A stretch of 55,879 bases of DNA. Source: Candidatus Peribacter sp. Its GTDB lineage: Bacteria > Patescibacteriota > Gracilibacteria > Peribacterales > Peribacteraceae. The notes beneath the pieces are model-generated. The model ran no database searches and was not told where the DNA came from. It saw nothing but the letters and a program-made list of their open reading frames with translations. The stretch is from the NCBI GenBank assembly GCA_018652955.1, contig JABIBA010000013.1, positions 1 through 55,879 of the forward strand, written 5' to 3'. Every line of letters begins with the position of its first letter. Position 1 is the stretch's first letter. The position numbers and the translations under genes were made by a program. This document shows positions 1 through 54,650 of the stretch, piece by piece.

Positions 1-141
1 AACGTCTGAGCGGCGCTGAGCGTCACGTGCATCTGCCAACTGCTTAGTTGGGTTGATAGCAACAATAACAATAGAAGCCAGAATGGCGATGATACCGATC
101 ACGAGCAGAAGCTCAATGAGGGTGAAACCTGAACGTTTCAT
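1..141 (-). CDS. Type IV pilin-like protein, N-terminal part (cut by window start)
   Basis: The reverse strand from 141 reads MKRSGFTLIELLLV, a class III prepilin leader. It has a short basic leader, Gly before the cleavage site, Phe +1, Glu +5 and then a hydrophobic helix. PilD would cut after the Gly and methylate the Phe. About 47 residues are visible before the window edge, ending in INPTKQLADARDAQRRSD. This closely resembles the pilin at 49842-50282, which shares MKRSGFTL and AINPTKQL. It lies 75 nt downstream of the minor-pilin operon on the same strand. A TACAAT box at 169-174 (reverse strand) with no clear -35 could give it its own promoter. It is probably a major or abundant pilin subunit. 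Confidence 0.85.
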   Translation of the reverse strand, partial: MKRSGFTLIELLLVIGIIAILASIVIVAINPTKQLADARDAQRRSDV

Positions 142-216: not shown

Positions 217-831
217 CTACAAACATGGCAGATCAACTGTTGCGTCTGTGCACACCGTATCAATGCAGTACGACCAAGAATAGATTCCGTCGCTACAACT
301 AGGGCTCGCACAGCTGCAGGGTGCAGACGGTTGGTCATCGGGAAATAGCGGAACTAATGCCTCAAATTTTCGCGTGTACTCCAAGGGAATGGTAAGAGGA
401 ACTGTTCGCGTAACATCAAATTCTACAAGAACAGATGCCAAATCCTCCGCACTGGATGTGTTGCGAATGATAAAGTTTGAGACAGTAACATTGCTTGAGC
501 TCATCGCTCTGAGTGTATTTGCCTCTCCAACATATAACACCGACCCCGATACTCCGATAATTGTCGGATAGAGTGTGTCATCTGCTAGTTGTAGTGCGAG
601 GATATCTCCTGCAGTCCCTATAGCTGGGTCTAGAATGCGCTCTGAGCTTCTGATACGGTTGGTAAGTGTTTGGATCAGCTGCACACCAGACTGTTCTACA
701 GTGGCGATTGTTTGCTGTCTGACACGTTGCTCTGATGTCATAAAGAAGAACGCTAAGAGTACACCGCTCGAGAGCCCAAAGAAGGCGAGGAAGAGTAAAA
801 GCTCAATGAGGGTAGTTCCGGAACGTTTCAT
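217..831 (-). CDS. Minor pilin / pseudopilin with Cys-rich tail
   Basis: A prepilin-type leader, MKRSGTTLIELLLFLAFF, begins at 831, with Gly before the cleavage site, Thr at +1 and Glu at +5, followed by one long hydrophobic helix. I chose this start because the upstream gene ends with TAA sharing one base with this ATG (TAATG, translational coupling). A longer frame to 870 would add 13 residues ahead of the leader. The remaining 204 or so residues resemble a PilW/GspJ-type minor pilin, with a methylation helix followed by a beta-rich body. The tail carries about seven cysteines, likely disulphides or a metal site. This is the last minor-pilin gene of the operon. Family assignment rests on the leader; the body was not recognised. 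Confidence 0.75.
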   Translation of the reverse strand: MKRSGTTLIELLLFLAFFGLSSGVLLAFFFMTSEQRVRQQTIATVEQSGVQLIQTLTNRIRSSERILDPAIGTAGDILALQLADDTLYPTIIGVSGSVLYVGEANTLRAMSSSNVTVSNFIIRNTSSAEDLASVLVEFDVTRTVPLTIPLEYTRKFEALVPLFPDDQPSAPCSCASPSCSDGIYSWSYCIDTVCTDATVDLPCL

Positions 832-1262
832 TAGTATGAACAGGAGGTAATAGTTGCGACTTCTTGCCATGAATATACTTGAATACTTGGTAGTAATCTT
901 TCGAGAACAATTTCTATACGTCTGGTATGTGATCCACTTATGCCTTCAAGGCAAAGCGTTCTGTTATCGTTACCAAACCCTCCCGGCTGCAAGATTTCAC
1001 AACTTCCTTCGGAGAGAGCTAATGTTTCCGCCCCTGTGTATCCATTATCGAGGAACAAACTCATAAGGCCGCGCTCTGCACATGTCTGTGCATTTTCTAA
1101 TGCCTGTGTGGACGATTGGAACGTTACTCCGTTTTCCATGGCTGCAATCGAAAGCATTAAGTACGACCCCAATACAGAGACAGCAACTGCCGAAACGAAT
1201 AGCACGGAGATGAGGAAGACGTATCCACCTCGCGCGTTCGATGATGACTGGATATTCATCAT
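831..1262 (-). CDS. PilX-like pilus assembly protein
   Basis: This is a 143-residue protein. It has a short polar N-terminus ending in Arg-Gly-Gly, a hydrophobic helix at about 13-40 (GYVFLISVLFVSAVAVSVLG) and a small extracytoplasmic domain with several cysteines. PilX/GspK-like minor components have this layout and often lack Glu +5, as here. The Gln-Ala-Leu-Glu-Asn-Ala-Gln stretch (about residues 53-59) resembles the A.nAe.A.r.G segment typical of PilX proteins. It starts inside the stop of the propeller pilin (ATGATGA) and its own stop overlaps the next pilin start, so it is co-translated with the other minor pilins. Two adjacent ATGs (1262 and 1259) are possible starts. Confidence 0.6.
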   Translation of the reverse strand: MMNIQSSSNARGGYVFLISVLFVSAVAVSVLGSYLMLSIAAMENGVTFQSSTQALENAQTCAERGLMSLFLDNGYTGAETLALSEGSCEILQPGGFGNDNRTLCLEGISGSHTRRIEIVLERLLPSIQVYSWQEVATITSCSY

Positions 1263-2701
1263 GATGGTTGGAGGATAATAAATGCCGTATTGGTCAGTAA
1301 GAAAACACGGTCGTGCAAAATGTCGTACGTCACACCTCGGCCATCTCCTGTTGTCGTGTTATAGGTTTCTGTAATGGGATTTCCTCCCGCTGCAAACGTT
1401 GCGATATTCAACACTACGAGCTCTTGTGAGTCGTGATTGGTCGCAGCAAAAGCGTACGTTGCGGTAGGGTCTGCATCGAGCGCATTTACACTTTCTCCAG
1501 TCTCTGCGTTCCATGGAGCATCGGGTGGCACTGGACTTTCGCTGACATCAAAGAGGTGGAGCTCTTCTGTAATATCTCCCTGATTTCTTCCGACGAGAAT
1601 GTAGTCTCCCAGTGCGGCAATAGACGTTGCGTCTGTAGTATCGGTTAAGTTGTACCCACCTCCTGCTGCAAATTCTAAGTCTGATGGATCAAATACATCT
1701 ACTACTCTTAGCTCCATCGTATCCATAGAACTTCCAAGATATGCATACCCGTTGAGCAGGCGAATATCGAGGAATGAAGACCCTGGATCATTGAGGTCAT
1801 CGAGCTGAGAGATGGAACCGAGATCCGAGACATCGTACGAATAGATTTCGCTCTCTCCTGTGTCCTCTGCTGCTGTGACATAGAGCGTGTCGTCGTAATA
1901 GGCAAAAGCGCGTGCCTTTGCGTTGCCGGGCACATTGATGGATGCAACAAAGTTGCCGGTATTAAATGATGATGGTGTTTCGATATCGTAGATGCGTACC
2001 TCCTGCCCTGAGTCTTCCGTGATAATAAACAGGTTGGTACCGACGATGAGAATGTCATGTCCTGCAGCCCCTAGATTAAACCCCTCGGCGATGCGCAGTG
2101 GATCGCTAGTATCCGTGATATCAAATACATAAAGACCCGCTCCTCCATCGGAAGTTTCTGATGTTGCAAAAGCGTGTGTCAATGTTGCTGCAGCAGAATT
2201 AAACAGTGGCGTATCGTCATCTATGTACGCACCATCCAGTGAAGCAAGTGCCCAGTTTCCCACCTCCTGAACACGGTGCCAGTCAGTAATTTCGGTACTC
2301 AGAACTGTGCTGCCACTTGCGCCTATGCCAAAGTCCCACACACTCAAAGCCGTTGCACTCATTCGCTCTGACGAGAGGGAAGTGATCGTGACAAATGTTG
2401 TGTACCCGTCCTCTGTTGTCACTCCAGTTCCAGAAAGTTCCCATGCACCAGAAGGGTTTAGACGTGCTCCAAATGTCCCCTCTGTCAGATTAGAAAAATC
2501 ACTGTCACGTACAGCGCGCACTGCAGCAATTGCTTTTTGATTGAGGAAAACTGCGCGAATACGGTCACCGCTTTTTAGCATTCCTTGCTGCGAAAAGAGC
2601 ATCGCATAAATCACTCCAGACACGACGATGGAAAACACTGCAACACCTATGAGTGCATCGAGAAAGAGTACACCCGATCGTTGGTAGGTCTTAATTCGCA
2701 T
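1259..2701 (-). CDS. Minor pilin fused to an LVIVD-type beta-propeller
   Basis: This 480-residue protein begins with a prepilin-like segment: QRSG, then a 24-residue hydrophobic helix. The +5 residue is Asp15, not Glu. A pilin-like stretch runs to about residue 130. From about 150 to the end there are six or more repeats of the form hyD(I/V).(D/S)P, for example GLYVFDITDTSDPLRI, ELRVVDVFDPSDLEF and ELHLFDVSESP. These match the LVIVD repeat, which forms a beta-propeller in secreted and surface proteins. The likely role is a pilus-tip or minor subunit carrying an adhesive propeller, comparable to PilY1, which also has a propeller but is a separate protein. Its start overlaps the end of the 1010-aa pilin gene by 11 nt. 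Propeller call from repeats is strong; the tip-adhesin role is inference. Confidence 0.7.
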   Translation of the reverse strand: MRIKTYQRSGVLFLDALIGVAVFSIVVSGVIYAMLFSQQGMLKSGDRIRAVFLNQKAIAAVRAVRDSDFSNLTEGTFGARLNPSGAWELSGTGVTTEDGYTTFVTITSLSSERMSATALSVWDFGIGASGSTVLSTEITDWHRVQEVGNWALASLDGAYIDDDTPLFNSAAATLTHAFATSETSDGGAGLYVFDITDTSDPLRIAEGFNLGAAGHDILIVGTNLFIITEDSGQEVRIYDIETPSSFNTGNFVASINVPGNAKARAFAYYDDTLYVTAAEDTGESEIYSYDVSDLGSISQLDDLNDPGSSFLDIRLLNGYAYLGSSMDTMELRVVDVFDPSDLEFAAGGGYNLTDTTDATSIAALGDYILVGRNQGDITEELHLFDVSESPVPPDAPWNAETGESVNALDADPTATYAFAATNHDSQELVVLNIATFAAGGNPITETYNTTTGDGRGVTYDILHDRVFLLTNTAFIILQPS

Positions 2702-5700
2702 TGCGCTGGATCATCCGCAGAATTGCTTTACCACAACCAAACTGGCGAGCACCGCGTGTATAGAATGGGAACAGGCTGCGCATCTGACGTTTGAGCCTTG
2801 GGTACTGCGAGAAGCGGTAGCTCTTCTTTCCTTCTGAGACATCAATTAATTGTTCGCAACTACATCCCTTCGTGTCGTTTAACGTAAAGTCGGAAATTTT
2901 CTTTCGTGGTCCAATACGGAAGATGTGACTATCGTTCGTCAGTGCATACCTCTTAAACAACATGTGTTCCGTCGGCACTGGCTCTGGCATGTATGTGTCT
3001 GGACAAAGGTCCAATGAGTTTAAAATTCCATCACCATCTTCGTCACCTTCACACTCTCCTTGGCGATCTCCGTGTGCACCATGTGCAGCCCATGATGACC
3101 GAGGAATTGTCAGTGTCGTGTGGTTTCTTGGGTTTCCTGGTGGGAAGTGACAGATCGCAATATCTGGATTGGATTCTTCTTCGGATGTTTCATCGTCGTC
3201 ATCTGATCCTCCGCTGCTGCCTGAGTCATCGTCATCTGAACTAGAGTCGTCATCGTCATCAGAACTACTACTTGAATCGTCGTCGTCATCAAAGCCACCG
3301 CAAATACCTTGGCTGGCTGGCTTTTCTATTGTGAGCAATATCGCTGCATCTTGGAAATCTGCTCCTGAGCCTAAGTCCTGCAACTCTACAAGAGCCAGTG
3401 CTTCTTTTGCGCCAACCATTACCTTGCGGCTAGAGATGCGTGTGCGAACAAATGACTTGAGCTTGCTTGGTGTTGCAAAGATTGTGGTATTTGGATCGGA
3501 CTGTTTGCGACGGAAAATCTTGATACGACCACTGCCATCTCCCGCTTGTGTTTGCTGGCGGAAGAGCCATGAACGACGTCCTTCTGCCTTAAGAATAATT
3601 GTACTACCAGAAGGAATATCTGTGAGGTAGTCATCTTCTCCACCATCAATATCCTTAAATCCAAATAGCGACCGCCACGTACTTCCTCCATCGGTACTCA
3701 CATTCAGGCGGACTTCTATTTCTGGTCCACCCTTTCCGTACGTCACATGTGATCCGAGTGCTCTAAACGAAATGTCGGCCGCTTCTCCGAGTACAATACG
3801 ACCGTTATTAACGGTAAACGCTGCAGCGCAAGGATCGATATCACCCTCGCTATTATTAGCGATGCCATCGTCGTCATCTCCGTCGCCATCGTCGTCATCG
3901 TCATTGTTGGCAACACCATCATCGTTGTCTCCGTCTCCGTCGTCTTCGTCGTTTGTAGTTCCTGAATCGTCGTCATCGGAACTAGAGTCGTCATCGTCAT
4001 CGGAACTTCCAGAGTCACCGCTATCATCGTCGTCACTGGTGCCTCCTGAGTATGGAGTCCAGTGCACAAACAATGCGTCATCAAGACCTGTTACACGCGT
4101 CTGGAAGAGCACAGAACCCGAGTCGTACGCGAGAACAACTTCGTCTCCTCCTGCGCCATCGTTGAGCACGTTATCGAACGGGTTTTCTGTTTTATTGTTT
4201 CCCGTATCGTTGACGAGAGCTGTAATTTTTGCCCCTTCAAATATGATACGTGCATCCACAATTTCTTTGCTTCCTCCGCTATGAGAACCGTGTGCAAGTA
4301 CGCGAATATTTCCGTTCTTGCGCTGGATAGACAAGCCTTCTACCTCTTCTACTAGCCCTCCATCTGTAGCGATTTGATTATCTGTTCCGAGGAGTGGAAT
4401 CCACTGACCTTCCCCGTACGCCCAAGCATTTGGCCCGACATACACTTTCTTTTTTGCATTTCCTTGTCCAGAGTTTTCTAGTCGTTCCCATTCAACTTTG
4501 AATCGTGGATCGGTTGAATCTGCACAACTTCCTGTCTCCTGATTAAACGAAAGAAGCAGTACAGCATCTTGGAAATCCGATGTACTTGTCCCTAGAGAGC
4601 CGAGCTCTCCAAGCAAAATGACATCATATTCTCCGATGCTAATATTTCCGTCTTCGTCGATAACATCCGCGAGGAATGTAGAGAGACTCTCTTGGTTATC
4701 GAAGACATCGTAGTCTGGTGGGGTGTCTCCGTTGCGTAGAACTTCTATGTGCCCAGAGCCGTCGTTACTCAAGTACGTCTTATTAAAGAGCCATCCGTAG
4801 CGACCGTTTATTTTTACAATGAGTTGCTGATCTGAAGTGATGTTATGCAGTGTTTGCTCTTCTCCACCATCAATTTCAGATCCGCTAAAGAGCATATTCC
4901 ATGTGCTTCCTCCGTCGGTGCTCACATGTGCACGCACTTGTATTTCTGGTCCTCCCGCTCCGTAGGTAATCTCTGCTCCCAATGCTTTTGCCGTCATACT
5001 TACTGTTCCTGTTGTTTGAATTGTTCCATCGTTACTTACAGAAAACCGATCTTCACAGGTTACTGGCCCATCGTCGTCGTCATCGCCACCACCTCCACTA
5101 CTGCCTCCTCCTCCATCGTCATCATCGCCTCCGCCACTATCTGAACCGCTGTCACCTGTATCTCCTGAGTCTCCGCTATCTCCTGAGTCGCCTGTATCAC
5201 CTGAGTCTCCGCTGTCGCCTCCCGTTTCAGCTCCTGTGTCTCCTGAATCACTTCCTGTGTCACCAGTTTCTCCCATGTCAGGCTCCTGAATATCAGAAGG
5301 ACTGAGCATGCCGTCTTCGCTTACGGTAATCGTTCTTTGCTCTCCGTTAAGCGCTTCGAGAATAATGTCTCCTGTTGGAGAAGGGATTCCATCAATACGA
5401 GAAAAGACGACCTCCTCAATTCCATACACACTGACACTTGCAGGAAGTGTGAGTATTTCATCAAAATCTGGATCACGAATAGCAAAACTCGCTCCTTGAA
5501 AAATTGTCCCCTCAGGAACACGGAACCCCCACATGTCATCTTCTTGTCCAGTTTGAGACAAAAGCTGCGCACGCGAAAGCCCTCCCAATGTCTGCACGAC
5601 AGCAAGATCTAAGTCACTTCGTACTTGATAATTTCGATACATCGGCACCGATACTCCTGCTGTAACTCCAATAACCCCAATGGTTAGCAGGACTTCAACA

Positions 5701-5723
5701 GCAGTAAAACCTCGGCGAGACAT
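2691..5723 (-). CDS. Giant mosaic prepilin with Asp/Ser/Gly linkers and duplicated modules
   Basis: This 1010-residue protein begins with a clear prepilin leader, MSRRGFTAVEVLLTIGVIG, followed by a GspH-like pilin region to about residue 148. A Gly-Asp-Ser-Thr linker spans about 149-221. Module A (about 222-400) contains YGAGGPEIQVR and VSTDGGSTW. Module B (about 405-558) is homologous to the C-terminal half of the neighbouring 300-aa pilin (shared patterns KVYVG, WIPL, GLSIQR, GGKE/GGSKE and F.TRVT). An Asp-rich linker (558-628) leads to module A' (628-805), a copy of module A with YGKGGPEIEVR and VSTDGGSTW. A second Asp/Ser linker is followed by CHFPPGNP...AHGAHGD, a thrombospondin type 3 calcium motif (DEDGDGILNSLDLCPDT) and a Cys-containing basic tail. 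It is probably an extended, calcium-stabilised surface subunit on the pilus. Confidence 0.75.
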   Translation of the reverse strand: MSRRGFTAVEVLLTIGVIGVTAGVSVPMYRNYQVRSDLDLAVVQTLGGLSRAQLLSQTGQEDDMWGFRVPEGTIFQGASFAIRDPDFDEILTLPASVSVYGIEEVVFSRIDGIPSPTGDIILEALNGEQRTITVSEDGMLSPSDIQEPDMGETGDTGSDSGDTGAETGGDSGDSGDTGDSGDSGDSGDTGDSGSDSGGGDDDDGGGGSSGGGGDDDDDGPVTCEDRFSVSNDGTIQTTGTVSMTAKALGAEITYGAGGPEIQVRAHVSTDGGSTWNMLFSGSEIDGGEEQTLHNITSDQQLIVKINGRYGWLFNKTYLSNDGSGHIEVLRNGDTPPDYDVFDNQESLSTFLADVIDEDGNISIGEYDVILLGELGSLGTSTSDFQDAVLLLSFNQETGSCADSTDPRFKVEWERLENSGQGNAKKKVYVGPNAWAYGEGQWIPLLGTDNQIATDGGLVEEVEGLSIQRKNGNIRVLAHGSHSGGSKEIVDARIIFEGAKITALVNDTGNNKTENPFDNVLNDGAGGDEVVLAYDSGSVLFQTRVTGLDDALFVHWTPYSGGTSDDDDSGDSGSSDDDDDSSSDDDDSGTTNDEDDGDGDNDDGVANNDDDDDGDGDDDDGIANNSEGDIDPCAAAFTVNNGRIVLGEAADISFRALGSHVTYGKGGPEIEVRLNVSTDGGSTWRSLFGFKDIDGGEDDYLTDIPSGSTIILKAEGRRSWLFRQQTQAGDGSGRIKIFRRKQSDPNTTIFATPSKLKSFVRTRISSRKVMVGAKEALALVELQDLGSGADFQDAAILLTIEKPASQGICGGFDDDDDSSSSSDDDDDSSSDDDDSGSSGGSDDDDETSEEESNPDIAICHFPPGNPRNHTTLTIPRSSWAAHGAHGDRQGECEGDEDGDGILNSLDLCPDTYMPEPVPTEHMLFKRYALTNDSHIFRIGPRKKISDFTLNDTKGCSCEQLIDVSEGKKSYRFSQYPRLKRQMRSLFPFYTRGARQFGCGKAILRMIQRNAN

Positions 5724-5753
5724 GGGTCCTATCCTATCATATGTCCCGTTTAA

Positions 5754-6656
5754 TCAAGGTGTGCCGGCTTGCCAGAAGATTAAAATAGTATCTCCTGCAT
5801 TTGTAACACGCGTCTTAAATTCCACTGATTCTTGATCAACAGCAAGTGTGTACTCATCACCACCAACACCTTCGTTCGTATTTCCGTCAAAGGGCTGTTC
5901 TCCTTCGTGATCTCCCGGCTCGTTTTCTATGTGATCAATATACCCTCTATCAAATTGAATAGTAGAGTCGATCACTTCTTTACCACCAGACTCTAGTCCA
6001 CCGTACGCAACGATCCGTACGAAGCCATTTTGTCGCTGTATAGAAAGACCATTAACAGCTAATACCAAGCCGTCATCGATAATAGGAAGTGCATTGTTGG
6101 TTAGTGGGATCCAAACCCCTTCTTCGAAGAGTTGCGCTGCTTCTCCTACGTAAACCTTATTAAGCGCGGCACCGTTTCCACTATTTTTTATACGATCAAA
6201 TCGTACCTTGAATTGCACCGGTGGAACTGGTGGGCCAGAGAGCGTATTGCCGCGTACTTTTACAATGCGCTGCTCGCCATTTAATGCTGTAAAGACAATA
6301 TCGCCTACTGCACTTGGCAGTCCAAACACGGGTGTAAAGTGTACTTCGAGTAAGCCCGATACGGTCACCGATGGAGGGACGGCTATAACTTCATCAAAAC
6401 CTGCATCACGCGATGCAAAATCTGTTCCAATAAATAGCGTTCCACTGTCTGCTCTGTACCCCCATGCCGAGGCCTCTTCTCCAGATTGAGCGATAAACTG
6501 AGCTCTCCTAAGAATTTGCTCTGCCTGCTCCGCTGCTAAATTCAGATCGCTTTTGATTTGGTAATTTCGATAACTAGGAATTATTGCAACACCCACAACT
6601 GCAAGAATGCTGATAGTAATAAGTAGTTCGACAAAAGAAAAACCTGATCTGTGCAT
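5754..6656 (-). CDS. GspH-like prepilin, short paralogue of the giant pilin
   Basis: The 300-residue protein has a prepilin leader, MHRSGFSFVELLITISILA, with Glu at +5. Its first 145 or so residues align by eye along their whole length with the start of the 1010-aa pilin: YRNYQ(I/V)(K/R)SDL(N/D)LA, then SR/FAxRDxxFDE and ALNGEQR. The second half (about 148-300) matches module B of that protein. The giant protein therefore looks like this pilin with extra modules added at each side of module B. It lies 16 nt downstream of pilC and 30 nt upstream of the giant gene, so it is in the same operon. It is a minor or structural pilin of the type IV pilus. Confidence 0.75.
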   Translation of the reverse strand: MHRSGFSFVELLITISILAVVGVAIIPSYRNYQIKSDLNLAAEQAEQILRRAQFIAQSGEEASAWGYRADSGTLFIGTDFASRDAGFDEVIAVPPSVTVSGLLEVHFTPVFGLPSAVGDIVFTALNGEQRIVKVRGNTLSGPPVPPVQFKVRFDRIKNSGNGAALNKVYVGEAAQLFEEGVWIPLTNNALPIIDDGLVLAVNGLSIQRQNGFVRIVAYGGLESGGKEVIDSTIQFDRGYIDHIENEPGDHEGEQPFDGNTNEGVGGDEYTLAVDQESVEFKTRVTNAGDTILIFWQAGTP

Positions 6657-6672: not shown

Positions 6673-8013
6673 TTATCGGCCTACATTTCCGACTACACTG
6701 TAAATTGGCGTGATGATTGCAAAGGCAATCGTTCCTACTAGACCACCAATAAATAGTAGTAGCATCGGTTCTAGGATTACCGGTAATTTCTCTGCTGTTT
6801 CCTCTGCTTTCTTTTCGTAAATTTCAGAAATCTTAATAAGGGTATCGCTTAGCGTTCCAGACTTCTCTCCAGTAATAACCAACTGTTGCACAGAAATTGG
6901 CAGTAGCTTGCTGGTATTTGGAATGGCTGCAAAGCTCTTACTAAAGCTATCTCCAAGCATAATATGCTCTAAGAGTTTCTTGTAAAACTTCTTGTAGGCA
7001 ACCATGTACGTTACGTCTTCTAGAGATCGCAGTGCCTCTGTAAGTGGAACACCTGCTTGCAAGAGTCCACCAAGAATAACACCAAAACGTGCAATAGTTG
7101 CAGAGCGAGCGAGTGATCCAATCCCTGGAACACGAAAGGCAAGCCACTGAGTAACCACACGAAATCTTGTAAACTTCGCTAGTAATATCAGCACGACAAA
7201 TCCAACGAGCATCATTGGAATTCCAATAGCACCGTACTCAGTAAATAGACCAGTGATGTAAATAACTGCGCGTGTTGTAATAGGTAACTCTGCATTCAGT
7301 GAAAGCAAAACCTGAATAAGGTTTGGCAGCACAAACATTCCAAGACCCATCACGATGATGAACATAAGCACCATAACAATTGCCGGATAGATCATCGCCA
7401 TTTTTACTTTTGCACGGAGTGCGCGATCTTTTTCTTGCTGCACAGAAAGCAGCTCCATATTGCGCGCAAGGTTTCCTGCTTCTTCACCAATACGCACGAG
7501 CGCCAGCTCGTAAGGAGAAAACAGGTACTGCTGTTCCATGGCTCTCCATAGCGGAATTCCACTTTCTACAGCCGCGGTAATTTTGCGAACGATCTTCTTT
7601 GTTGCTTTGTGTCGTATTTCTTTTTCGAGTGTCGCGAGTGCATCGATGAGAGGAAGTCCTGCGTTCATCATCATCGCCAAACTTTGAATCATGGCGACAC
7701 GCTGCTTTCCCATTCCCATGTTATTCACCGAGGCAAAGAATTTTGAAAGCCCTGTCTTCGGCTTAGCTTCTGCAACGAATTCTTCTGGCTCTTTCTTTTT
7801 ACCAATAGAAAACGAAAAGAATTTCTTTTTGAGTCTAGTAGGCTTTTGCTCCTCCACTGGTTCTTCTTCCTCAACTTCTTCTTGAGGCTCTTCTTCCTCC
7901 ACCACTTCTTCTACGACTTCTTCTTCGATCTTCTTTACCTTCTTTTTTGTAGCTCGCTTCGCTTTGCGAACCGGTTTCTTTTTTGCCGCTGGCTTCTTCT
8001 TACTTTTTGGCAC
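6673..8013 (-). CDS. pilC: Type IV pilus inner-membrane platform protein PilC
   Basis: The 446-residue protein has two T2SSF (GspF/PilC) domains, at about residues 100-225 and 305-430, each with the typical ..AG.(P/S)L..AL..L.. start and a following membrane helix. Recognisable stretches are MMMNAGLPLIDALATLE and GGLLQAGVPLTEALRSLE, and the C-terminal helix lies near LLLFIGGLVGTIAFAI. PilC sits in the cytoplasmic membrane and couples the PilB motor to pilin assembly. Unusual is a roughly 90-residue N-terminal extension that is first Lys/Ala-rich and then almost pure Glu/Val (KKIEEEVVEEVVEEEE). It starts inside the last 14 nt of pilB, so it is translationally coupled. Confidence 0.93.
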   Translation of the reverse strand: MPKSKKKPAAKKKPVRKAKRATKKKVKKIEEEVVEEVVEEEEPQEEVEEEEPVEEQKPTRLKKKFFSFSIGKKKEPEEFVAEAKPKTGLSKFFASVNNMGMGKQRVAMIQSLAMMMNAGLPLIDALATLEKEIRHKATKKIVRKITAAVESGIPLWRAMEQQYLFSPYELALVRIGEEAGNLARNMELLSVQQEKDRALRAKVKMAMIYPAIVMVLMFIIVMGLGMFVLPNLIQVLLSLNAELPITTRAVIYITGLFTEYGAIGIPMMLVGFVVLILLAKFTRFRVVTQWLAFRVPGIGSLARSATIARFGVILGGLLQAGVPLTEALRSLEDVTYMVAYKKFYKKLLEHIMLGDSFSKSFAAIPNTSKLLPISVQQLVITGEKSGTLSDTLIKISEIYEKKAEETAEKLPVILEPMLLLFIGGLVGTIAFAIITPIYSVVGNVGR

Positions 8014-9811
8014 GTTTCTTGGAGAAAATGATTGCTGGAGGCGCAGCTACACGAAGAAGTTCTTCGAGAGTAGTAAGTCCCGAAAGAGCCTTAGTAAAGC
8101 CATCTTCAAACATCAGTTTCATTCCCTTTTTCCGTGCGTGCGCGTTGATATCCGCACTCGTTGCTCGGTTGATAATGAGGTTTTCGATCTCTGGAGTAAT
8201 CTCGAGAAGTTCGTAGATTCCTACTCGTCCTTTGTATCCTGTTCCTCCACACGACTCACAACCTTTTCCTTTGTAGAGTGTTACTTTTTTTGATCCTTTG
8301 AAAAACTTAGCAGCCCCTGCAAACATCGACTTAGCAGAGCTTGCAGAGACCGAGTAACTGTATCGGCAATCTGGACAGATGCGTCGCACCAGTCGCTGTC
8401 CGATAATAACCTCAAGTGTAGAAGCCATAAGGAACGGTTCGACATTCATATCCAGCAAACGCGGTACTGCGGTAGCCGCATCATTGGCGTGCAGTGTCGA
8501 GAACAAGAGGTGACCGGTGAGCGCTGCATTAATCGAAATATCTGCAGTCTCTCCGTCACGAATCTCACCTACCAAAATCACATCAGGGTCCTGACGCACA
8601 AGAGCACGAAGCCCTGACGCAAACGTGAGGTTTGCCTTTGCATTTACCTGAATGTGGTTCACTCCACGGATCTTGTATTCCACAGGATCTTCAATCGTAG
8701 AGATGTTGATATCTGGCTGGTTACGCATCTTCATAAGAGCTGACAGTGTTGTGGATTTACCGCTACCCGTTGGCCCTGTGGTGAGGATCATTCCAAATGG
8801 TTTTTGTGCAGCTTTTTCGAGTACTGCCTGTGCCTCTTCTGTAAACCCGAGGTCTGCGAGAGACAGTGTGCGTACGTAGGCAGCGAGCAGTCGCATTACG
8901 ATTTTTTCACCATCGACAACCGGAACAATGTTTACACGTATATCCATCGTACCTGCTTCGTTCTTGTGGCGAATGGCACCATCTTGCGCTGCGAAGTGTT
9001 CGTCGATACGCATGTTTGATTCGATCTTTACACGGTTTACCACCCCTTCGTAGTGCTCACGAGGGATACGTCCTGCCTCATGAAGTACACCGTCTACACG
9101 AAAGCGCACAACAACAATATCTTCCTGTGGTTCGAAGTGAATATCCGATGCTCGCAACTCGATTGCATCGTCCAAGATCTCTCCTAGAATCTCTGGAGCT
9201 ACTTTTCCTTGCTGCTCAATGATCTGTTGGAACCTTGTCGCAAGAGGCTTTCTAAAGTGATGAAGAGAGGACTCGATGTTTTCTTGAGCGGTGAATACAA
9301 ACGTGATCTTTCCGCCAAATTGCTTTGAGGCTTCTGCTTTTTTTGAGGAGAACAGCCCGCCAGACTTTTTTGGTTTTGCTTTGGTCTTCTTTGTTTTTTT
9401 GGCCTTTGTTTCTTTGCCGTCTTTTTTGGGCATAGTGACTTCATCTTGTTCGAAGTTGAGTCGCACTGCCTCTTCGAGTGTCGGTTCACCTGGGTCTGAT
9501 GTTGCAACAGTGAGCGAGTTTCCTGCGTGCTTTACTACAATCGCGTGGTACTCACGTGCAACTTCCTCAGGCAATTTAGCAATCAGCTCTGGAGACGGTG
9601 GCGTTTCAGCGATGTCGTAAAACGGCAACTTGTAGTGTTCGGCTAACGCCTGTTCATAGAGTGACTGTGTAAGAAGCCCTTTTTCCATGAGAATAGAAAA
9701 CAGTTCCATCTTGCGATCTTTCGCAGCCTTCTTGGCAATTTTGAGCTCCTCTTCGGAGACATAGCTTTGTGCTAGGAGTATTTCGCCGAGTTCTGAATCT
9801 TTAAGAGCCAT
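8000..9811 (-). CDS. pilB: Type IV pilus assembly ATPase PilB
   Basis: This 603-residue AAA-type secretion ATPase hydrolyses ATP to drive pilus extension at the cytoplasmic face of PilC. Visible motifs are Walker A GPTGSGKST (345-353), Asp box STIEDPVEY (370-378), Walker B DPDVILVGEIRDGET (407-421), His box TGHLLFSTLHAND (431-443), and a zinc site with CPDC (478-481) and CESC (517-520). The zinc site and the N-terminal GspE/MshEN-like domain identify PilB over PilT. The N-terminal domain is interrupted by a Lys-rich insert at about 126-162 (KAKKTKKTKAKPKK), unusual for the family. It follows the response regulator by one base and overlaps pilC by 14 nt. No PilT retraction ATPase is present in the window. 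Confidence 0.95.
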   Translation of the reverse strand: MALKDSELGEILLAQSYVSEEELKIAKKAAKDRKMELFSILMEKGLLTQSLYEQALAEHYKLPFYDIAETPPSPELIAKLPEEVAREYHAIVVKHAGNSLTVATSDPGEPTLEEAVRLNFEQDEVTMPKKDGKETKAKKTKKTKAKPKKSGGLFSSKKAEASKQFGGKITFVFTAQENIESSLHHFRKPLATRFQQIIEQQGKVAPEILGEILDDAIELRASDIHFEPQEDIVVVRFRVDGVLHEAGRIPREHYEGVVNRVKIESNMRIDEHFAAQDGAIRHKNEAGTMDIRVNIVPVVDGEKIVMRLLAAYVRTLSLADLGFTEEAQAVLEKAAQKPFGMILTTGPTGSGKSTTLSALMKMRNQPDINISTIEDPVEYKIRGVNHIQVNAKANLTFASGLRALVRQDPDVILVGEIRDGETADISINAALTGHLLFSTLHANDAATAVPRLLDMNVEPFLMASTLEVIIGQRLVRRICPDCRYSYSVSASSAKSMFAGAAKFFKGSKKVTLYKGKGCESCGGTGYKGRVGIYELLEITPEIENLIINRATSADINAHARKKGMKLMFEDGFTKALSGLTTLEELLRVAAPPAIIFSKKRAKK

Positions 9812-9812
9812 A

Positions 9813-10202
9813 TTATTTGATGGATGCTTTTACCTTTTTGATAATCTCTACGATTGGCGTATTGGACTTTACAAAGTAGTCCACTGCCCCCAGTTTCTTT
9901 GCGCGCTCTTTGTCTTCTTCTTGCCCCAAGTTACTGAGAATAATGATGGGAGTTTTCTTTTTGAGCTGTTCCATAAACGTAAATCCATCCATTTCCGGCA
10001 TGATGAGATCGAGAAGGATCATATTGAACTTTTCTGCGTTTGCCATTTTCAAACCTTCGGCGCCGTCTGTTGCGATGGTGACGTCGTATCCCTCATGCGA
10101 GAACTTCAATTCCAATGCATGAGCTAGTGGTCGCTCATCCTCAACAATCAGGATCTTTTTCCCTTTCTTTGCCGGCGTTTTTTTTGTGTCTTTTTCGGCC
10201 AT
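9813..10202 (-). CDS. Single-domain response regulator (CheY/PilG/PilH-like)
   Basis: The 129-residue receiver domain has no output domain. Acidic pocket residues are Glu21/Asp22, the phosphoacceptor is Asp65 in ILLDLIMPEMDG, with Ser90 and Lys112 as the switch residues. A short Lys-rich N-terminus (KKTPAKKGKK) precedes the fold. It is the first gene of the pilus operon, directly before pilB. By analogy with PilG/PilH it probably tunes pilus activity after phosphorylation by a histidine kinase that is not in this window. The promoter at 10227-10255 would drive it and the downstream pilus genes. Confidence 0.9.
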   Translation of the reverse strand: MAEKDTKKTPAKKGKKILIVEDERPLAHALELKFSHEGYDVTIATDGAEGLKMANAEKFNMILLDLIMPEMDGFTFMEQLKKKTPIIILSNLGQEEDKERAKKLGAVDYFVKSNTPIVEIIKKVKASIK

Positions 10203-14385: not shown

Positions 14386-14526
14386 ATGTCGAAATGGACG
14401 CTTCAGGTATTCGTATCTGCGGGCACGGCTAGTGCCGACAACATTCGATGTAATTACGGCTTTCAGCCCAAATCTATTGTGGCTGAGAGCCTATTTCAAA
14501 TACCGAAATATAGATCGATAAACTGA
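14386..14526 (+). CDS. Possible leaderless 46-codon ORF
   Basis: An ATG at 14386 lies exactly where transcription from the TTGACA/TAAACT promoter should begin, matching the leaderless pattern of many genes in this window. The frame runs 46 codons (starts MSKWTLQVFVSAG, ends PKYRSIN) to TGA at 14524-14526. It overlaps the end of pilD, on the other strand, by 31 nt. No family is recognisable. The same stretch forms strong hairpins, so it may be a structured RNA and not coding. Confidence 0.2.
   Translation: MSKWTLQVFVSAGTASADNIRCNYGFQPKSIVAESLFQIPKYRSIN
14387..14495 (+). ncRNA. Candidate structured small RNA
   Basis: Downstream of the strong promoter are two clear hairpins. The first is GGCAC-GGCTA-GTGCC (14422-14436). 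The second is an 11-bp stem GGCTTTCAGCC/GGCTGAGAGCC with one G-U pair (14458-14468 with 14481-14491) and a 12-nt loop. No run of T follows the second stem, so it is not a textbook terminator. The sequence does not match what I know of tmRNA, SRP RNA, 6S or RNase P RNA. The ends are approximate. Confidence 0.3.
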
Positions 14527-15242
14527 TCGATGCGTGAATGGGCGAAGATCGAGACAATAGCACCAAGGACAAGAAACGGAGCGAACGCTACGTACTGCCC
14601 ACGTTTTACCTTCCCAGAAATCAGCAATGCGCTAGCAATAGCGCCACCTAAGACATACGTCAAAAAGAGGCACACTGCCATACGTTCCCAGCTTCCCATT
14701 AGAGCCCCTATACCAGCCGCGAGAATGATGTCACCGCTCCCAAGGCACTTTCCACGACTGACAGCCCACTGAGCCCCAAAGAATGCCACTCCGAGGACGA
14801 TACCATCGATCTCAAACTGTCCCAGCATAATACTGTACCCAACTGCGAGTGCGAGCAGAGGGATGTTGAGAAGATCGGAGATTGTCTGCGTACGAATATC
14901 AATAACACTGATAATAAGCATTAGCCACAGAATCAAGCTCAACACTATTGCCTGAGGGAGCACTGGACGATAAAAGAGCGCCGCTATAAATAGGGCTGCA
15001 CTAATAATTTCTAAAAACGGATAACGAAATCCAATGCAATCTTTACACGAACGACACCGACCGCGCAGACAACAAAAACTCAGAAGTGGAATAAGTTCTA
15101 GCGGATGCAATGTGCGCTTACATGCACTGCACTGCGAGCGACCTCCAATAGACATACCCTGTGGAATACGCTCGGCAAGGACCGACCCAAAGCTTCCAAA
15201 ACATAAACCCGCTATGCCAAATAACCATATCGTAAATGTCAT
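14496..15242 (-). CDS. pilD: Prepilin peptidase / N-methyltransferase PilD
   Basis: This 248-residue membrane protein of the A24 aspartic peptidase family cuts class III prepilin leaders after Gly and methylates the new N-terminus. Motifs: GSFGSVLAERIP near the N-terminus; zinc-type cysteines Cys38/Cys41 and Cys63/Cys66; catalytic Asp115 (VIDIRT) and Asp171 in GSGD. About seven hydrophobic helices are evident. It would process the pilins at both ends of this window. It lies 19 nt downstream of the LPDTG-tailed protein gene and is probably co-transcribed with it. Confidence 0.95.
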   Translation of the reverse strand: MTFTIWLFGIAGLCFGSFGSVLAERIPQGMSIGGRSQCSACKRTLHPLELIPLLSFCCLRGRCRSCKDCIGFRYPFLEIISAALFIAALFYRPVLPQAIVLSLILWLMLIISVIDIRTQTISDLLNIPLLALAVGYSIMLGQFEIDGIVLGVAFFGAQWAVSRGKCLGSGDIILAAGIGALMGSWERMAVCLFLTYVLGGAIASALLISGKVKRGQYVAFAPFLVLGAIVSIFAHSRIDQFIDLYFGI

Positions 15243-49841: not shown

Positions 49842-50282
49842 TTACGACCCGCAGTCTTCTTCTAAGGCGGGGCTACATACTTTTATGAAGCTTCCGAGCT
49901 TATACACCTTGTATCCGGTGATATTGAGGTCTGTTTCGTTTGGATCTATAGGGAGAGAGGTGAGATATTTTCCATTTGTCGTTAAAACAGAAAGATCATA
50001 TCCGCTTACTGGTGCATCGGTGCAATCGGTTCCTGTAACGGTATCTCTGCAGATATCGAGGGCATTTGCCTTAATCGTTGGGACTCCAGAGACGATATTA
50101 CTATCGATAATATACTGCGAAATAGCATTCTCAAGTTCTCTCGTTGATACATTGCGGTTTACACCCCTGGCGTCATTGAGTTGCTTTGTTGGATTGATGG
50201 CAACCAAAATAATTGTGGAGAGAATTGCGAGTATCCCGAGCACGAGCAGGAGTTCCATTAATGTAAATCCACTACGTTTCAT
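49842..50282 (-). CDS. Type IV pilin-like protein
   Basis: The 146-residue protein has prepilin leader MKRSGFTLMELLLVLGILA and Glu +5, followed by a helix that continues into AINPTKQLNDARGVNR. The C-terminal domain has a Cys pair (CRDTVTGTDC) and a second pair near the end (CSPALEEDC). It is the paralogue of the pilin cut by the window start. It is the last gene behind the secreted-protein operon, with an extended -10 box (TGA-TACAAT) overlapping the stop of the gene before it. A major or minor pilin is likely. Confidence 0.85.
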   Translation of the reverse strand: MKRSGFTLMELLLVLGILAILSTIILVAINPTKQLNDARGVNRNVSTRELENAISQYIIDSNIVSGVPTIKANALDICRDTVTGTDCTDAPVSGYDLSVLTTNGKYLTSLPIDPNETDLNITGYKVYKLGSFIKVCSPALEEDCGS

Positions 50283-50289
50283 GAGTTAC

Positions 50290-50298
50290 ATTGTATCA
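50290..50298 (-). promoter_or_regulatory. Extended -10 promoter of the pilin gene
   Basis: Reverse strand TGA-TACAAT (50298-50290), 7 nt before the ATG at 50282. The TGA is also the stop codon of the 558-aa gene. Confidence 0.5.
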
Positions 50299-51972
50299 GA
50301 GCTTGTCTACGGCTTCTTGGCATTTTTCCCATGTGGTTTTATCAGGTGCTTCTGCCCCTGGCTTTACTTGGAATGATCCGTTTGCATACGGGAAGCATTC
50401 ATCAGAGTAGAGCGTCTTTATTATTGTCTCGAGTTTCTCATTGCATGGTCTGTAGATGCAGCTTCTTCGGAGGAAGTATGCATAGTTTCTCGCAAATTTA
50501 CGGAGTCCTGTATTAGAGTTGATTACCAGTTCGATGTTGCGCTTTATAGCAGGTCGAACAGGTTTTAGTGCTTCGAGTACTTCGAGTTCTGCATCTTGAG
50601 CTTTGGGGAGAATGCTGGATTCTTGTGTTGCTTGCTTGTGTGAAAATGCTTTCCAAATACTGCGGAACATACTACGCGGAATACGTATTAGTCCGAGTGT
50701 ATCTCTTTCAAATTCTGCAGTTTCCCTTCGGTCAGTTTCGTCCTCGTGTTCATCTGCCTTTTTTAGGTAGTCGGGATATTCTCGTTGTTCTGCCCATTCA
50801 TGCTGCAGTCTAAAGAACTTCTTCCAAATGGTGAGGTGATCTTTTCTAAAGAAGAACGGTCCTCGTACAGCTATTGATCCCCATTCTTCTGAGGGTTTTA
50901 TCTTAGGTGTGAGCGTCCCCTCGACACCGTCGTTATTGGTGCGATCCTCAGGAGCAGTGTCTGCATTACAGCCAAATACCCTGCGGTGGTCGACGTCTTC
51001 TACTTCTCCAAATCTTTGTAAGTGCTGGCGTTCGTTATCATTAAGCATTGTTTGATCTACGAGATTATCGATACTGAGTGTGGAGTCTTTGATGTGATCA
51101 ATGTCTTCGAGGAATTCATTTCGTATATCTTCAAGTTTTTCTAGAGCTTCAGCTTCTGCGGCAACGGCTTCGAAGTTGCTGCCGGCAAACTGTTTAATGA
51201 GTTCTAATTGGCAGCCGTATCCTGTTGAGTTATCTGCGAGATAGTTTGAATCAAATGGACAGATGGGTTCGTACTTCGGGTCTGTTGTTCCAGATTCTGC
51301 AAATACACAAATGCCATCGGTTAAGCATGCATCTTCTGTGTCAAAAAATTCATATCCTCCACTGCCATCTTTTACCTCTGTGCATTCATCAGATTCTTTA
51401 ATTTGGCATTCTAGTTGATCGAGCACGCAACACCATCCTCTAAATGGATCATCAAATTCATTGTAAAACACCCAATCACTATCGGTATGTACAGGCTCTA
51501 GTGCTCCTTTGACTAAGTGCTTGTAGCGCTGATTTAAAAAGCTTGCGATTGTCTTTAGTTGTCGCAGTGCTCCTGGGGATTTTGCATCGTATGCTGCGTT
51601 TACTTCACAGCGTACTTCTTCCATTTTGGCTTCCATCATCGCAAGATCTAAGTGGAGACACGGAGTAATACTTGTAAGGTCTCGTGAGTATTCCACAGCC
51701 CTCAGATCAGTATCGACAAGCATGTAGAAAATAGATTCCATCGTTGAGAGATAGTGCAAATCCATCAGGTCAATTACTGATGACCCACGTGGTGATGCTT
51801 TCGCATTATTTATTCCCTCACTTACACGCTCCAGTACTGTTTCTGTGTAGTGTCCTGTTGGGTCTTGGTTGAGCAGGTCACGCGCAACGGGAGATACTGG
51901 GCACTGTGCAGCGACTACTGCCGGGAGCAGCAGAGCGTAAAGGCCTATGGAGAAAGAAAGTTTCTGCTTCAT
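50296..51972 (-). CDS. Secreted Cys-containing protein, unknown family
   Basis: The 558-residue protein has a signal peptide (MKQKLSFSIGLYALLLPAVVAA, cut before QCPVSP). The N-terminal half is helical with cysteines and a Cys-rich patch at about 180-250 (GWCCVLDQLECQI, CVFAES, CPFDSN). The middle is helical and charged, and the C-terminal part has a Cys pair (RRSCIYRPCNEKL). The cysteines suggest oxidative folding outside the cytoplasm. No membrane anchor is seen after the signal peptide. Its start overlaps the stop of the upstream gene (ATGA), so it is in an operon with the zinc-protease-like protein. Function unknown. Confidence 0.7.
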   Translation of the reverse strand: MKQKLSFSIGLYALLLPAVVAAQCPVSPVARDLLNQDPTGHYTETVLERVSEGINNAKASPRGSSVIDLMDLHYLSTMESIFYMLVDTDLRAVEYSRDLTSITPCLHLDLAMMEAKMEEVRCEVNAAYDAKSPGALRQLKTIASFLNQRYKHLVKGALEPVHTDSDWVFYNEFDDPFRGWCCVLDQLECQIKESDECTEVKDGSGGYEFFDTEDACLTDGICVFAESGTTDPKYEPICPFDSNYLADNSTGYGCQLELIKQFAGSNFEAVAAEAEALEKLEDIRNEFLEDIDHIKDSTLSIDNLVDQTMLNDNERQHLQRFGEVEDVDHRRVFGCNADTAPEDRTNNDGVEGTLTPKIKPSEEWGSIAVRGPFFFRKDHLTIWKKFFRLQHEWAEQREYPDYLKKADEHEDETDRRETAEFERDTLGLIRIPRSMFRSIWKAFSHKQATQESSILPKAQDAELEVLEALKPVRPAIKRNIELVINSNTGLRKFARNYAYFLRRSCIYRPCNEKLETIIKTLYSDECFPYANGSFQVKPGAEAPDKTTWEKCQEAVDKL

Positions 51973-54650
51973 CTATTGCGTTGGAATTCTCTGCAGCTAA
52001 AGTCTTCGTCTACATAACGCGGACACATCATGGTTGGGAATTTTAACTCTCCTACATTATCGAGTACGTGGTACATCGTGTTGAGGAGATCCGTAAATTG
52101 TCTCGATCCTGTTCTTAAGTATTGCGTAAACATGTCTGTGGCAATTCTGGATCCAATAGCGGAGGCAGCGTATTGAATACCAAGACCAGTTGCATCGTAT
52201 TGTTCTGGCTGCAATGCAAGATCATCGACGCTTTGTATAAGTGTAAGAGGAGGGAGTCCAATACGCTTAAGTGTATCGAAGCCACACAAGATCGGTGGTG
52301 TACGTGCAGGGAGCCCATTGATTTGGCAGAGAGCTATATCGAGTTCTTGGAGGATACGTGCAGGCTGATAGAGAGGGAGCCTTGGAGCGGTGAGTGCAGG
52401 AGGTGCCTCGAAGCTACCGAGGTTTGGGTCCGGTAGTTCGCAGCTATCCCAAGGGAATCCTTCGTCTACTGTTGTCAGTGCGGCGCGCCCAGGGATATCT
52501 CGTGCCCATTCTCGTGTCTCTTCTAGGCACTGCCCGGTGTAACACAAGTTGTTCCCGATGGTATTTTGATATTGCGATTGGCAACCAGGCCTGCAAGAAA
52601 GAGGGAAGGAGTTGTAGAGTGCTTTGATGCGAGGGTGCTGTAATGCTGCAGAGCAGGTAGTCGGTGATTTTAGCTGAGGGGCGAGGTCTTCTATGGCCGT
52701 ATTAATGGCTTTGGAAACAAGTTGTGGGTCGATCCCGTCGTTGGTGCAGACATAATCTTCATCTGTTTTATCATCATCATGACTACTGCAACTAAAGTTT
52801 GCATACGCACTGGCGCATTGATCTATGGTGACACCAGCTTTATCAAGCACACCATCTATTGCGAGGAGTTTGCATTGCACGAAATAGGATTCGCGCTCAG
52901 CAGCACAACACGCTCCAGGGTCTTTATTATTTTGATCACGCATTCCTACACGCTCAAGTAATTGTAAGGTGCTGTCATTACAGTTTTGTTGTGCATGGAT
53001 TATCTCGTGTGCAAGGAGATAGTATGCAAGTCCCTGTACAGGAGGATTCTCCGGTACACAGATTTCTATTCTACCGTTTTCGCGAAAAACAGAGGTGACT
53101 GCAGAGGTGTCGCTTCCATTACATGTGTCTGCGCATATAACATCTACGGCACAGGCTGTGCATTTGTTTGGCAGCATATCTGGTTGCTTCTCTGGAGTAT
53201 CTTCTACGAGGTTTTCTTGTACGGTTTCTTTCCATCCTCCAATACCGCAGATATTCATTGCAGCAGTTTTGCGCGCAACATCATCTTTAAATCGTTCTGG
53301 CTGACAACGCGAAAGAACTATACCTCCTGTTCCTGCTGCGATAAGCTCATCCTCTTGTTCTGTGGTGAGGTCACAAGCTTCGTATTCTATGCGCCTACAG
53401 AGGTATCCACGTTTACCAAATGGATGAGAGCACACACCGTCTGTTTCGAGAGGCTCTGGAACAACTGCGTGGTCAGTAGGGTCTGCAGAACTCGTCGTCG
53501 AAGAACTACTAGAAGAGCTAGAGGCTGCTGGGTTTTTTATACCAACAAGTGGCTGGTCAAATAGCTGATCGTCCCCCTGTTTATTTGGGTAGTTTCCTCC
53601 GCGCACTAAGAAGCCTGAATACGTGTCGTAGCAATTTCTAGCACTATCGCCATCGAGACAGTCACCAAAATCGGGGTGATAGAGTGCTGCCTGTATAGGT
53701 TCTAATGGGACGTACCATTGCAATCCTACATCGTCGTAGCGCATCCAGATGTATACGTTTTTATCTTTATCAATAAAGCTTGGATAGAGGATGTGCTCGT
53801 CGTTCCCCAGATCTCCTCGGTCTGTTTGTATGCTTGTTAGAATTTTGAGCAGATCATCTTCAAGTTCGCACCACCTTCTTTCGAGCCAAAGGTTTTCGGA
53901 TATGGTTGGAAATTCGGGCGCATCTGCACAAGGGCCTTCGTGATCTATGACGTATTGCACACCATGGCGATAGCGCCACATTGCTCCAACCATGTCGTCT
54001 TTGTCCTTTTTCTCTGTGGCGTCGTCATTTTCCGCTTTCCATGTTCGAATCATGTCCTGTAGGCGGTCTACTACTTTCTGTGCATCTGCCTTGATGGTGT
54101 CTTCCGTTCCACTGGGCCAAGGTCGTGCGCGCGTGAGTGTTTCGAGAATCGGTTCAATGAATGGGTCATTTGCTGTGCGCCACAAGTGGTTGATGCTTGA
54201 AAAGCGCGTAATAACATCTACAGGTTTTGCTGGGTATCCATCTATACCCATTTCATATCCAGAGACTATCGCCTGCAAATCTCTTCCAAGTTTGCGTAGC
54301 CAGGTGTTTCGCTCGATTATTGTTCGCAATCTGTTTTGTGCCATGAGACAGGCGATGTATCGATTTTTTATATCTGGATCACCACACATCTTTGCGTAAT
54401 TGGTTTGTAGAGAGTCATCGGGATATTCCTCGTCGCGTATTTCGAAGGGAATTGTACTGTCATCTATATCATGAGTATCTAGATCAAAGTCATGAAAGAC
54501 TCCTATAGAAATTCGTTGAATAGGTAGCGTGGTTTCTTCTGCTCGTGACTCAAGCTCAACAATATTTTTAATGCGTTTGTAGAGCGTGTCATCGTCTGCA
54601 GCGAATGCTACAGGCATGAGCAAGCCTATGAGGAGGAGAAGGGTGTTCAT
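51969..54650 (-). CDS. Secreted protein with HEXXH zinc-protease motif
   Basis: The 893-residue protein has a signal peptide (MNTLLLLIGLLMPVAFA, cut near AFA). The middle holds YYLLAHEIIHAQQNC: His548-Glu549-x-x-His552, the zincin catalytic motif. It is followed about 30-40 residues later by CCAAERESYFVQC, where a Glu may be the third zinc ligand. The large N-terminal part (about 1-390) is helical with charged stretches. A Ser-rich linker (about 375-385) and many Cys pairs suggest disulphide-stabilised domains. Peptidase activity is a prediction from the motif. It is translationally linked to the 246-aa and 558-aa genes. Confidence 0.7.
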   Translation of the reverse strand: MNTLLLLIGLLMPVAFAADDDTLYKRIKNIVELESRAEETTLPIQRISIGVFHDFDLDTHDIDDSTIPFEIRDEEYPDDSLQTNYAKMCGDPDIKNRYIACLMAQNRLRTIIERNTWLRKLGRDLQAIVSGYEMGIDGYPAKPVDVITRFSSINHLWRTANDPFIEPILETLTRARPWPSGTEDTIKADAQKVVDRLQDMIRTWKAENDDATEKKDKDDMVGAMWRYRHGVQYVIDHEGPCADAPEFPTISENLWLERRWCELEDDLLKILTSIQTDRGDLGNDEHILYPSFIDKDKNVYIWMRYDDVGLQWYVPLEPIQAALYHPDFGDCLDGDSARNCYDTYSGFLVRGGNYPNKQGDDQLFDQPLVGIKNPAASSSSSSSSTTSSADPTDHAVVPEPLETDGVCSHPFGKRGYLCRRIEYEACDLTTEQEDELIAAGTGGIVLSRCQPERFKDDVARKTAAMNICGIGGWKETVQENLVEDTPEKQPDMLPNKCTACAVDVICADTCNGSDTSAVTSVFRENGRIEICVPENPPVQGLAYYLLAHEIIHAQQNCNDSTLQLLERVGMRDQNNKDPGACCAAERESYFVQCKLLAIDGVLDKAGVTIDQCASAYANFSCSSHDDDKTDEDYVCTNDGIDPQLVSKAINTAIEDLAPQLKSPTTCSAALQHPRIKALYNSFPLSCRPGCQSQYQNTIGNNLCYTGQCLEETREWARDIPGRAALTTVDEGFPWDSCELPDPNLGSFEAPPALTAPRLPLYQPARILQELDIALCQINGLPARTPPILCGFDTLKRIGLPPLTLIQSVDDLALQPEQYDATGLGIQYAASAIGSRIATDMFTQYLRTGSRQFTDLLNTMYHVLDNVGELKFPTMMCPRYVDEDFSCREFQRNR

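Follow-up and report, generated by a model that had tools for sequence, protein, structure and literature searches.

How a pilin can reach 1010 residues, where such a protein came from and what its head does are the questions raised by a locus of the small uncultured bacterium Candidatus Peribacter sp. (Ca. Peribacteraceae, Patescibacteria; assembly GCA_018652955.1, contig JABIBA010000013.1). We analysed it in a window of 55,879 nucleotides, the start of a 374-kb contig in a genome of 1.2 Mb that is 99% complete. Our reading, to which we give a rough probability of 0.62, is that the giant belongs, as a minor pilin of the FimU/GspH type, to a type IV pilus lacking a secretin, and bears at the tip a head that grips a partner cell or a surface.

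Gene order and pilus machinery

The reading frames of the giant (2691-5723, 1010 aa) and of its neighbour (5754-6656, 300 aa), both on the minus strand, were exactly as the initial annotation had described them. It had recorded the 300-aa pilin next door and overlooked the minor pilins further downstream, one of which carries a β-propeller. The order on the minus strand is response regulator, PilB, PilC, 300-aa pilin, 1010-aa giant, 480-aa, 143-aa and 217-aa pilins and a cut major-type pilin; the prepilin peptidase is listed last.

9813-10202, minus strand: response regulator
8000-9811, minus strand: PilB-type extension ATPase (PF00437, E 7e-119, with MshEN)
6673-8013, minus strand: PilC-type platform protein (PF00482, E 4e-47)
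5754-6656, minus strand: 300-aa pilin, pilin domain plus module B
2691-5723, minus strand: giant pilin, 1010 aa
1259-2701, minus strand: pilin in the PilV/GspI position fused to a seven-bladed β-propeller, 480 aa
831-1262, minus strand: minor pilin without Glu5, putatively GspK/PilX-like, 143 aa; conserved family with 20 invariant columns
217-870, minus strand: minor pilin with Glu5 and a Cys-rich C-terminus (GspJ/PilW-like), 217 aa; weak matches to the GspH and GspJ models
1-141, minus strand: start of a major-type pilin (MKRSGFTLIELLLVIGIIAILASIVIVAINPTKQ...), 47 codons before the contig end cuts the gene (PF07963, 31.6 bits)
14496-15242, minus strand: prepilin peptidase of the PilD type (PF01478, 50.2 bits)

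The 143-aa pilin is probably GspK/PilX-like, judging by its operon position and the absence of Glu5. The PilD gene was the sole copy found in the genome, and a second PilB/PilT-type (PilT-like) ATPase is encoded elsewhere in it, outside the window. The PilY1 propeller domain (PF05567) was found in none of 54 relatives, but the control genomes were equally silent in this search.

The alternative that survives best is a type II-like secretion system whose short pseudopilus is built from these pilins, with the head of the giant recruiting or pushing secreted substrates rather than mediating cell adhesion. Sets of H-I-J-K-like pilins are common to type II secretion systems and type IV pili, the matches of the giant's pilin domain include EpsH and XcpH (see below), and a type II secretion system is named in the paper on the Peribacteria genome (PMC4736985). 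However, a pseudopilin system of this kind needs the secretin GspD, and a genome-wide search with PF00263 gave no match in the 99% complete genome while being positive in six control genomes. The PilT-like ATPase and the major-type pilin after the operon also speak against a pseudopilus, as do the known lectin and adhesive domains that other pilins of this family carry, and we consider it rather improbable.

A second pilin locus lies at 49842-55863, where a major-type pilin (49842-50282) stands beside four Cys-rich, exported-looking proteins without a Pfam match (50296-51972, 51969-54650, 54647-55387 and 55387-55863). One of the four, of 893 aa, has a HEIIH motif like that of zinc proteases.

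Modules of the giant pilin

The giant was divided into the following parts.

5295-5723, minus strand: leader MSRRG and FimU/GspH-like pilin domain, residues 1-143 (motif read directly; AlphaFold model)
5061-5273, minus strand: linker 1, residues ~151-221, Gly/Asp/Ser-rich, predicted to be disordered (pLDDT ~30)
4518-5060, minus strand: module A, residues 222-402, with Cys223 and Cys400 at its bounds; predicted LecB-type lectin-like fold
4044-4511, minus strand: module B, residues 405-560; 47% identity to the module of the 300-aa pilin
3837-4043, minus strand: linker 2, residues ~561-629, Asp-rich, with two DxDxDG motifs
3294-3836, minus strand: module A', residues 630-810, with Cys632 and Cys808 at its bounds; 40% identity to A
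3168-3293, minus strand: linker 3, residues about 811-852
3048-3167, minus strand: small Cys/His module, residues 853-892, ICHFPPGN...AHGDR.GEC (pLDDT 81-90)
2703-3047, minus strand: TSP3 motif and C-terminal domain, residues 893-1007, ...ALTN...GPRKK...GCSCEQL...FGC, near-invariant in orthologs

The initial annotation had named A, A', B, the linkers and the TSP3 motif, and had missed the Cys/His module (853-892), which is also present on short pilins of Peribacteraceae, and the C-terminal domain (to residue 1007). The module sharing and duplication that it had proposed to check by dot-plot were clear in BLASTP comparisons. Residues 1-142 and 407-555 of the giant matched the 300-aa protein with 46% identity (E ~1e-40) and 47% identity (E ~1e-37) respectively, the latter stretch being module B, and copy A (223-395) matched copy A' (632-801) with 40% identity over 173 aa (E 2e-34). 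Given these E-values, the similarities are not due to chance.

PilD cleavage requires Gly, Phe at +1 and Glu at +5. All three are present in the leader MSRRG/FTAVE, which is kept in orthologs, and with PilD encoded in the window the leader appears cleavable, as had been supposed. The Pfam N_methyl model scored 14.4 bits on the giant in the protein scan, below the cut-off, and 21.7 bits, above it, in the genome search. The protein is intact and indeed a very large pilin, with orthologs of ~900-1040 aa; the accompanying statement that pilins are normally small overlooks the modular pilins, a known class (PMC8179133).

The TSP3 calcium motif is present as annotated, at residues 894-910 (DEDGDGILNSLDLCPDT), and its Asp 894, 896, 898 and 905 and Cys907 were at least 90% conserved in an alignment of 32 sequences. 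The giant may bind calcium. A calcium-dependent stalk, which had also been suggested, is not general among the orthologs. The linkers keep their positions and vary widely in length and composition, from Asp-rich and Gly/Asp through Thr/Gly and Ser/Ala to pure Ser, and arrays of DxDxDG motifs occur in few relatives only (many motifs in linker 1 of four orthologs; two, in linker 2, in the giant itself). With positions fixed and composition variable, the linkers are best taken as spacers in general and as calcium arrays only in some proteins. The conserved TSP3 motif is part of the C-terminal domain rather than of a stalk.

The ten cysteine residues of the giant mark the ends of its modules: A has 223 and 400, A' has 632 and 808, the Cys/His module has 858 and 891, and the C-terminal domain has 907, 954, 956 and 997. 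Most were near-invariant in the 32 sequences, and they may form disulfide bonds. Peribacteria have a disulfide-formation protein and many large Cys-rich exported proteins (PMC4736985).

The composition of the head also bears on the idea of a competence (DNA-uptake) filament, whose heads would bind DNA or serve as wall spacers. Com pili capture DNA via pilin subunits (PMC12153270) and follow the same minor-pilin logic. However, strong acidity makes the linkers and some portions of the head unsuited to DNA, and the heads are modular, with lectin or adhesive domains in relatives; we regard DNA uptake as improbable.

Predicted folds

An AlphaFold model of the giant was built with 32 sequences, and folds were compared using VIA-align. 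The pilin domain, A, B, A' and the Cys/His module were predicted with high confidence, including the three modules for which structure prediction had been proposed. The three low-complexity linkers coincided with disordered, low-confidence stretches (residues 151-218, 561-627 and 809-851), and the C-terminal domain was uncertain. The pilin domain (residues 28-150) matched FimU (4ipu) with Z 11.5 and an rmsd of 2.8 over 119 residues, followed by EpsH (2qv8, Z 10.6) and XcpH (9a1f, Z 9.8). With a predicted fold closest to FimU/GspH and the first place in a four-type minor-pilin operon, the giant can be placed in the FimU/GspH class of minor pilins.

The predicted model of module A matched the LecB-family lectins BclA, LecB, CV2L and RS-IIL with Z 9.2-9.8 and rmsd 2.5-3.0. 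The match covered nearly the whole lectin (104-115 of 113-128 residues), and the next unrelated folds were C2 domains with Z 6.0, suggesting a LecB-lectin-like fold for A. In LecB the two calcium ions are bound by Glu95, Asp99, Asp101, Asn103, Asp104, the main chain of Asn21 and the C-terminus of the neighbouring chain (PMC8752737). The near-invariant residues of A, E373 and D383-F-Q385-D386 (E...DFQD), resemble LecB Glu95 and Asp101-Tyr-Asn103-Asp104, a mapping made by motif only. Unlike LecB/PA-IIL, A has no obvious counterpart in this motif comparison of the calcium/sugar aspartates Asp96 and Asp99, and therefore sugar binding may not be conserved; A also continues into B, so that no free C-terminus can complete a partner's site. 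No match to the LecB family (PF07472) was obtained in 35 A modules, nor did A profiles match LecB among PDB sequences, but HMMER may miss so distant a relative; PF07472 was likewise silent in 380 genomes of the phylum, but also in the control genomes. The proposed link between A and LecB is thus a structural one, drawn from the model and not from sequence profiles.

Module B gave a well-predicted β fold whose best Z value, 5.7, was at background level, with no Pfam or PDB sequence match; neither B nor the C-terminal domain had a confident fold match. Matches of A to BNR, Reelin and Mo-co dimer families, all below the cut-off, were taken as chance β-sandwich similarity, and whole-protein Foldseek matches (ferlins, reelin), which are multi-domain β chains with a very low TM-score, were set aside. 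The BNR/Asp-box-like motifs in A (E 0.008) and the weak resemblance between B and some stretches of GH98 enzymes (Z ~5.5) might point to a head that is an enzyme, or an enzyme carrier, acting on partner-cell polymers. Yet the Asp-box matches are below the cut-off, the Z values of B are background, and Pfam and NCBIfam scans found no catalytic domain in the giant, making an enzymatic head quite unlikely.

Conservation and origin

Orthologs of the giant were found in 26 of 57 Peribacteraceae genomes, some cut by contig ends, with the module order pilin, linker, A, B, linker, A', linker, (Cys/His), TSP3 plus C-terminal domain. This excludes a fusion or assembly artefact. Named relatives matching the whole giant were almost all Candidatus Peribacteraceae/Peregrinibacteria, one natural variant (L136, 880 aa) lacks A', and an IMG/VR scan gave no viral relatives. 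About 25 relatives share a fixed order, with the giant followed by the propeller pilin, the two small minor pilins and a short pilin that is of the major type over its first 40 residues. In three other families of the class the same minor-pilin operon has an undecorated pilin of 143-186 aa in the giant's slot.

A pilin gene so firmly locked into a minor-pilin operon, with a well-conserved, FimU-like pilin domain, is hard to square with a non-assembled surface protein for which the pilin leader is merely a membrane anchor; heads so large are unusual in filaments and PilD cutting is no proof of assembly, and still we give this explanation little credence.

The undecorated pilins of the three other families were used to root a pilin tree. 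Giants from more than 20 genera formed one clade (95/92), and the pilin+Cys/His and pilin+Cys/His+A forms branched outside the giants and the pilin+B group. The latter, to which the 300-aa protein belongs, was at most a weakly supported sister of the giants (81/56). The B modules of giants were split from the short B modules (95). The 300-aa type was sporadic: it was clear in six cases, and in three of these it lay on a different contig from the giant. The claim that the giant was built from its 300-aa neighbour is rejected on the trees, which leave a possible shared ancestor; the 300-aa pilin is a sporadic old paralog and not the parent. All 31 A' copies formed one clade (support 99), which places the duplication of A before the giants diversified. 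The modules were most likely acquired stepwise, inside Peribacteraceae, by an ordinary FimU-like pilin, with a single duplication of A.

A full Peribacteraceae operon also occurs on a contig titled Kiritimatiellales bacterium (L042:8093-13735). In the pilin tree it clustered firmly with a contig from Patescibacteria, and the Kiritimatiellales contig is probably mis-binned.

The same modules on other proteins

Module A is also found by itself, in secreted Phycisphaerae proteins and in a protein of the haloarchaeon Halomarina. The stand-alone forms, of ~240-285 aa (L083:9593-11367, L087:9884-10615 and L061:36-761), represent a domain family without a name, recognizable by E...ADFQDAV. A Sec-secreted protein that is not a pilin (L134:5098-7113), from another family of the class, has an LVIVD propeller, a DDDD linker and a C-terminal A; propeller and A thus meet again without a pilin, and this protein is possibly the soluble counterpart of the two decorated pilins. 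Many large secreted proteins from Gammaproteobacteria, Acidobacteria, Sorangium and DPANN archaea terminate in a module of TSP3 plus GCSCEQ; at the TSP3 loci L057-L100 this module recurs C-terminally as TSP3 followed by PESVPT...RYALVDGD...GCSCEQII...FGCS. The giant shares this motif order near the C-terminus with large secreted proteins of several phyla, and differs in that its copy belongs to a pilin and has ~25 additional helical residues ahead of the final Cys.

Other domains, too, occur on pilins of this family. At L121 (1594-7045), three tandem modular pilins (418, 928 and 427 aa) precede the propeller pilin, and the middle one bears two Laminin_G_3 lectin domains besides A; this cluster is module shuffling inside one genome. 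An ice-binding-like pAdhesive_15 domain together with A is found at L125, and DUF11 at L128. The propeller pilin directly follows the L121 cluster and several pilin-Cys/His-A genes, and was not visible within the stretches of L125 and L128 examined. Directly upstream of the giant, two relatives (L111:2654-13198 and L112:2828-13318) encode pilins of 3,514 and 3,496 aa with 70% mutual identity, comprising a pilin domain, several Fn3-like and Pur_ac_phosph_N domains, and DUF5122 and PD40 propeller repeats. To our knowledge, these are among the largest pilin-type proteins.

By every feature that could be tested, the giant is a modular type IV pilin: it has a class III leader, a pilin module of known fold and extra domains that are not specific to type IV pili, since A stands alone in Phycisphaerae and Halomarina and the C-terminal module occurs in many phyla. 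Modular type IV pilins are widespread, with 264 architectures that include CPR examples, and the most extreme by domain number in that survey is an 860-aa Ca. Falkowbacteria protein with 12 copies of one motif (PMC8179133). The giant shares a class III leader, a small pilin module and a large non-pilin module, putatively adhesive in the giant, with S. sanguinis PilB and PilC (PMC8179133, PMC9934059). Unlike the known cases, it is larger than the Falkowbacteria protein, has several modules, A and B being without a Pfam family, and keeps its architecture family-wide, while the same slot is reused for different modules. Adhesive modules grafted on pilins are thus an established principle (PMC8179133). 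Our literature search found no paper describing the giant pilin; what is new here is its size, the two modules without a Pfam family, the family-wide architecture, the pairing with a propeller pilin within the same putative tip operon and the exchangeable slot.

The propeller pilin and a candidate tip complex

The 480-aa pilin, which directly follows the giant in nearly all relatives, was predicted as a pilin helix with a seven-bladed propeller (pLDDT 87.6); the propeller matched WD40 domains with Z 33 and LVIVD with E 0.0014. It resembles PilX2 of Saccharibacteria, also a patescibacterial minor pilin with a C-terminal seven-bladed propeller, but PilX2 differs in its RCC1 repeats and in lacking a predicted PilD leader (PMC12206443). 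PilX2 is required for normal host binding, which dropped from ~10.6% to 4.6% of host cells upon its deletion (PMC12206443). In contrast with the PilX2 system, Peribacteria have a second, far larger decorated pilin beside the propeller pilin. The FimU-PilV-PilW-PilX-PilY1 tip complex offers a further comparison, with a FimU-like fold and four minor-pilin types in one operon (PMC7541494, PMC5979040); in Peribacteria, however, the PilV-like pilin bears the propeller as a fusion and a giant head is attached to the FimU-like subunit. The minor-pilin/PilY1 complex of Myxococcus both primes the pilus and occupies its tip (PMC7541494).

For the giant as a tip adhesin, the leader, operon, modules, conservation, PilB, PilC, PilD and second ATPase can be read from sequence, and the pilin fold from the model; from these we infer the tip location, the adhesion and the type of ligand. 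PilD would cut the leader of the giant, whose N-terminal helix would then pack against the operon's other minor pilins (PilV-, PilX- and PilW-like), and the packed complex would prime the pilus and remain at its tip. The head of ~860 residues (A, B, A', Cys/His and TSP3 C-terminal domain) would be held outside on flexible spacers beside the propeller of its neighbour. There it may bind a ligand on the partner cell or surface, probably a glycan via the LecB-like A modules, and PilB-driven extension and PilT-driven retraction would draw the cell to the bound partner. That the job of the head is binding is suggested by the known binding domains swapped on one pilin type. Because no secretin was detectable, no pore would be expected to limit head size.

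More tentatively, Peribacteria may have an exchangeable host-recognition slot at the pilus tip, in which lineages exchange the head of the FimU-like subunit and keep the neighbouring propeller pilin constant. The content of the slot would decide which partner cells are within reach of such an ultrasmall bacterium; the two A modules might then give a bivalent, calcium-dependent glycan grip. The contents that suggest such a slot are LecB-like A, B, laminin-G lectins, an ice-binding-like adhesive and Fn3/propeller arrays of up to 3,500 aa.

How Patescibacteria recognize partner cells is a long-standing question, for which this locus is a concrete candidate in Peribacteria. It provides one family-wide gene slot whose exchangeable, putatively binding modules could be produced and assayed on glycan arrays with no need for a culture, and it gives a biological context to domains A and B, unnamed so far. 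It also suggests that the pilus subunits of bacteria without an outer-membrane pore may be free to carry very large heads.
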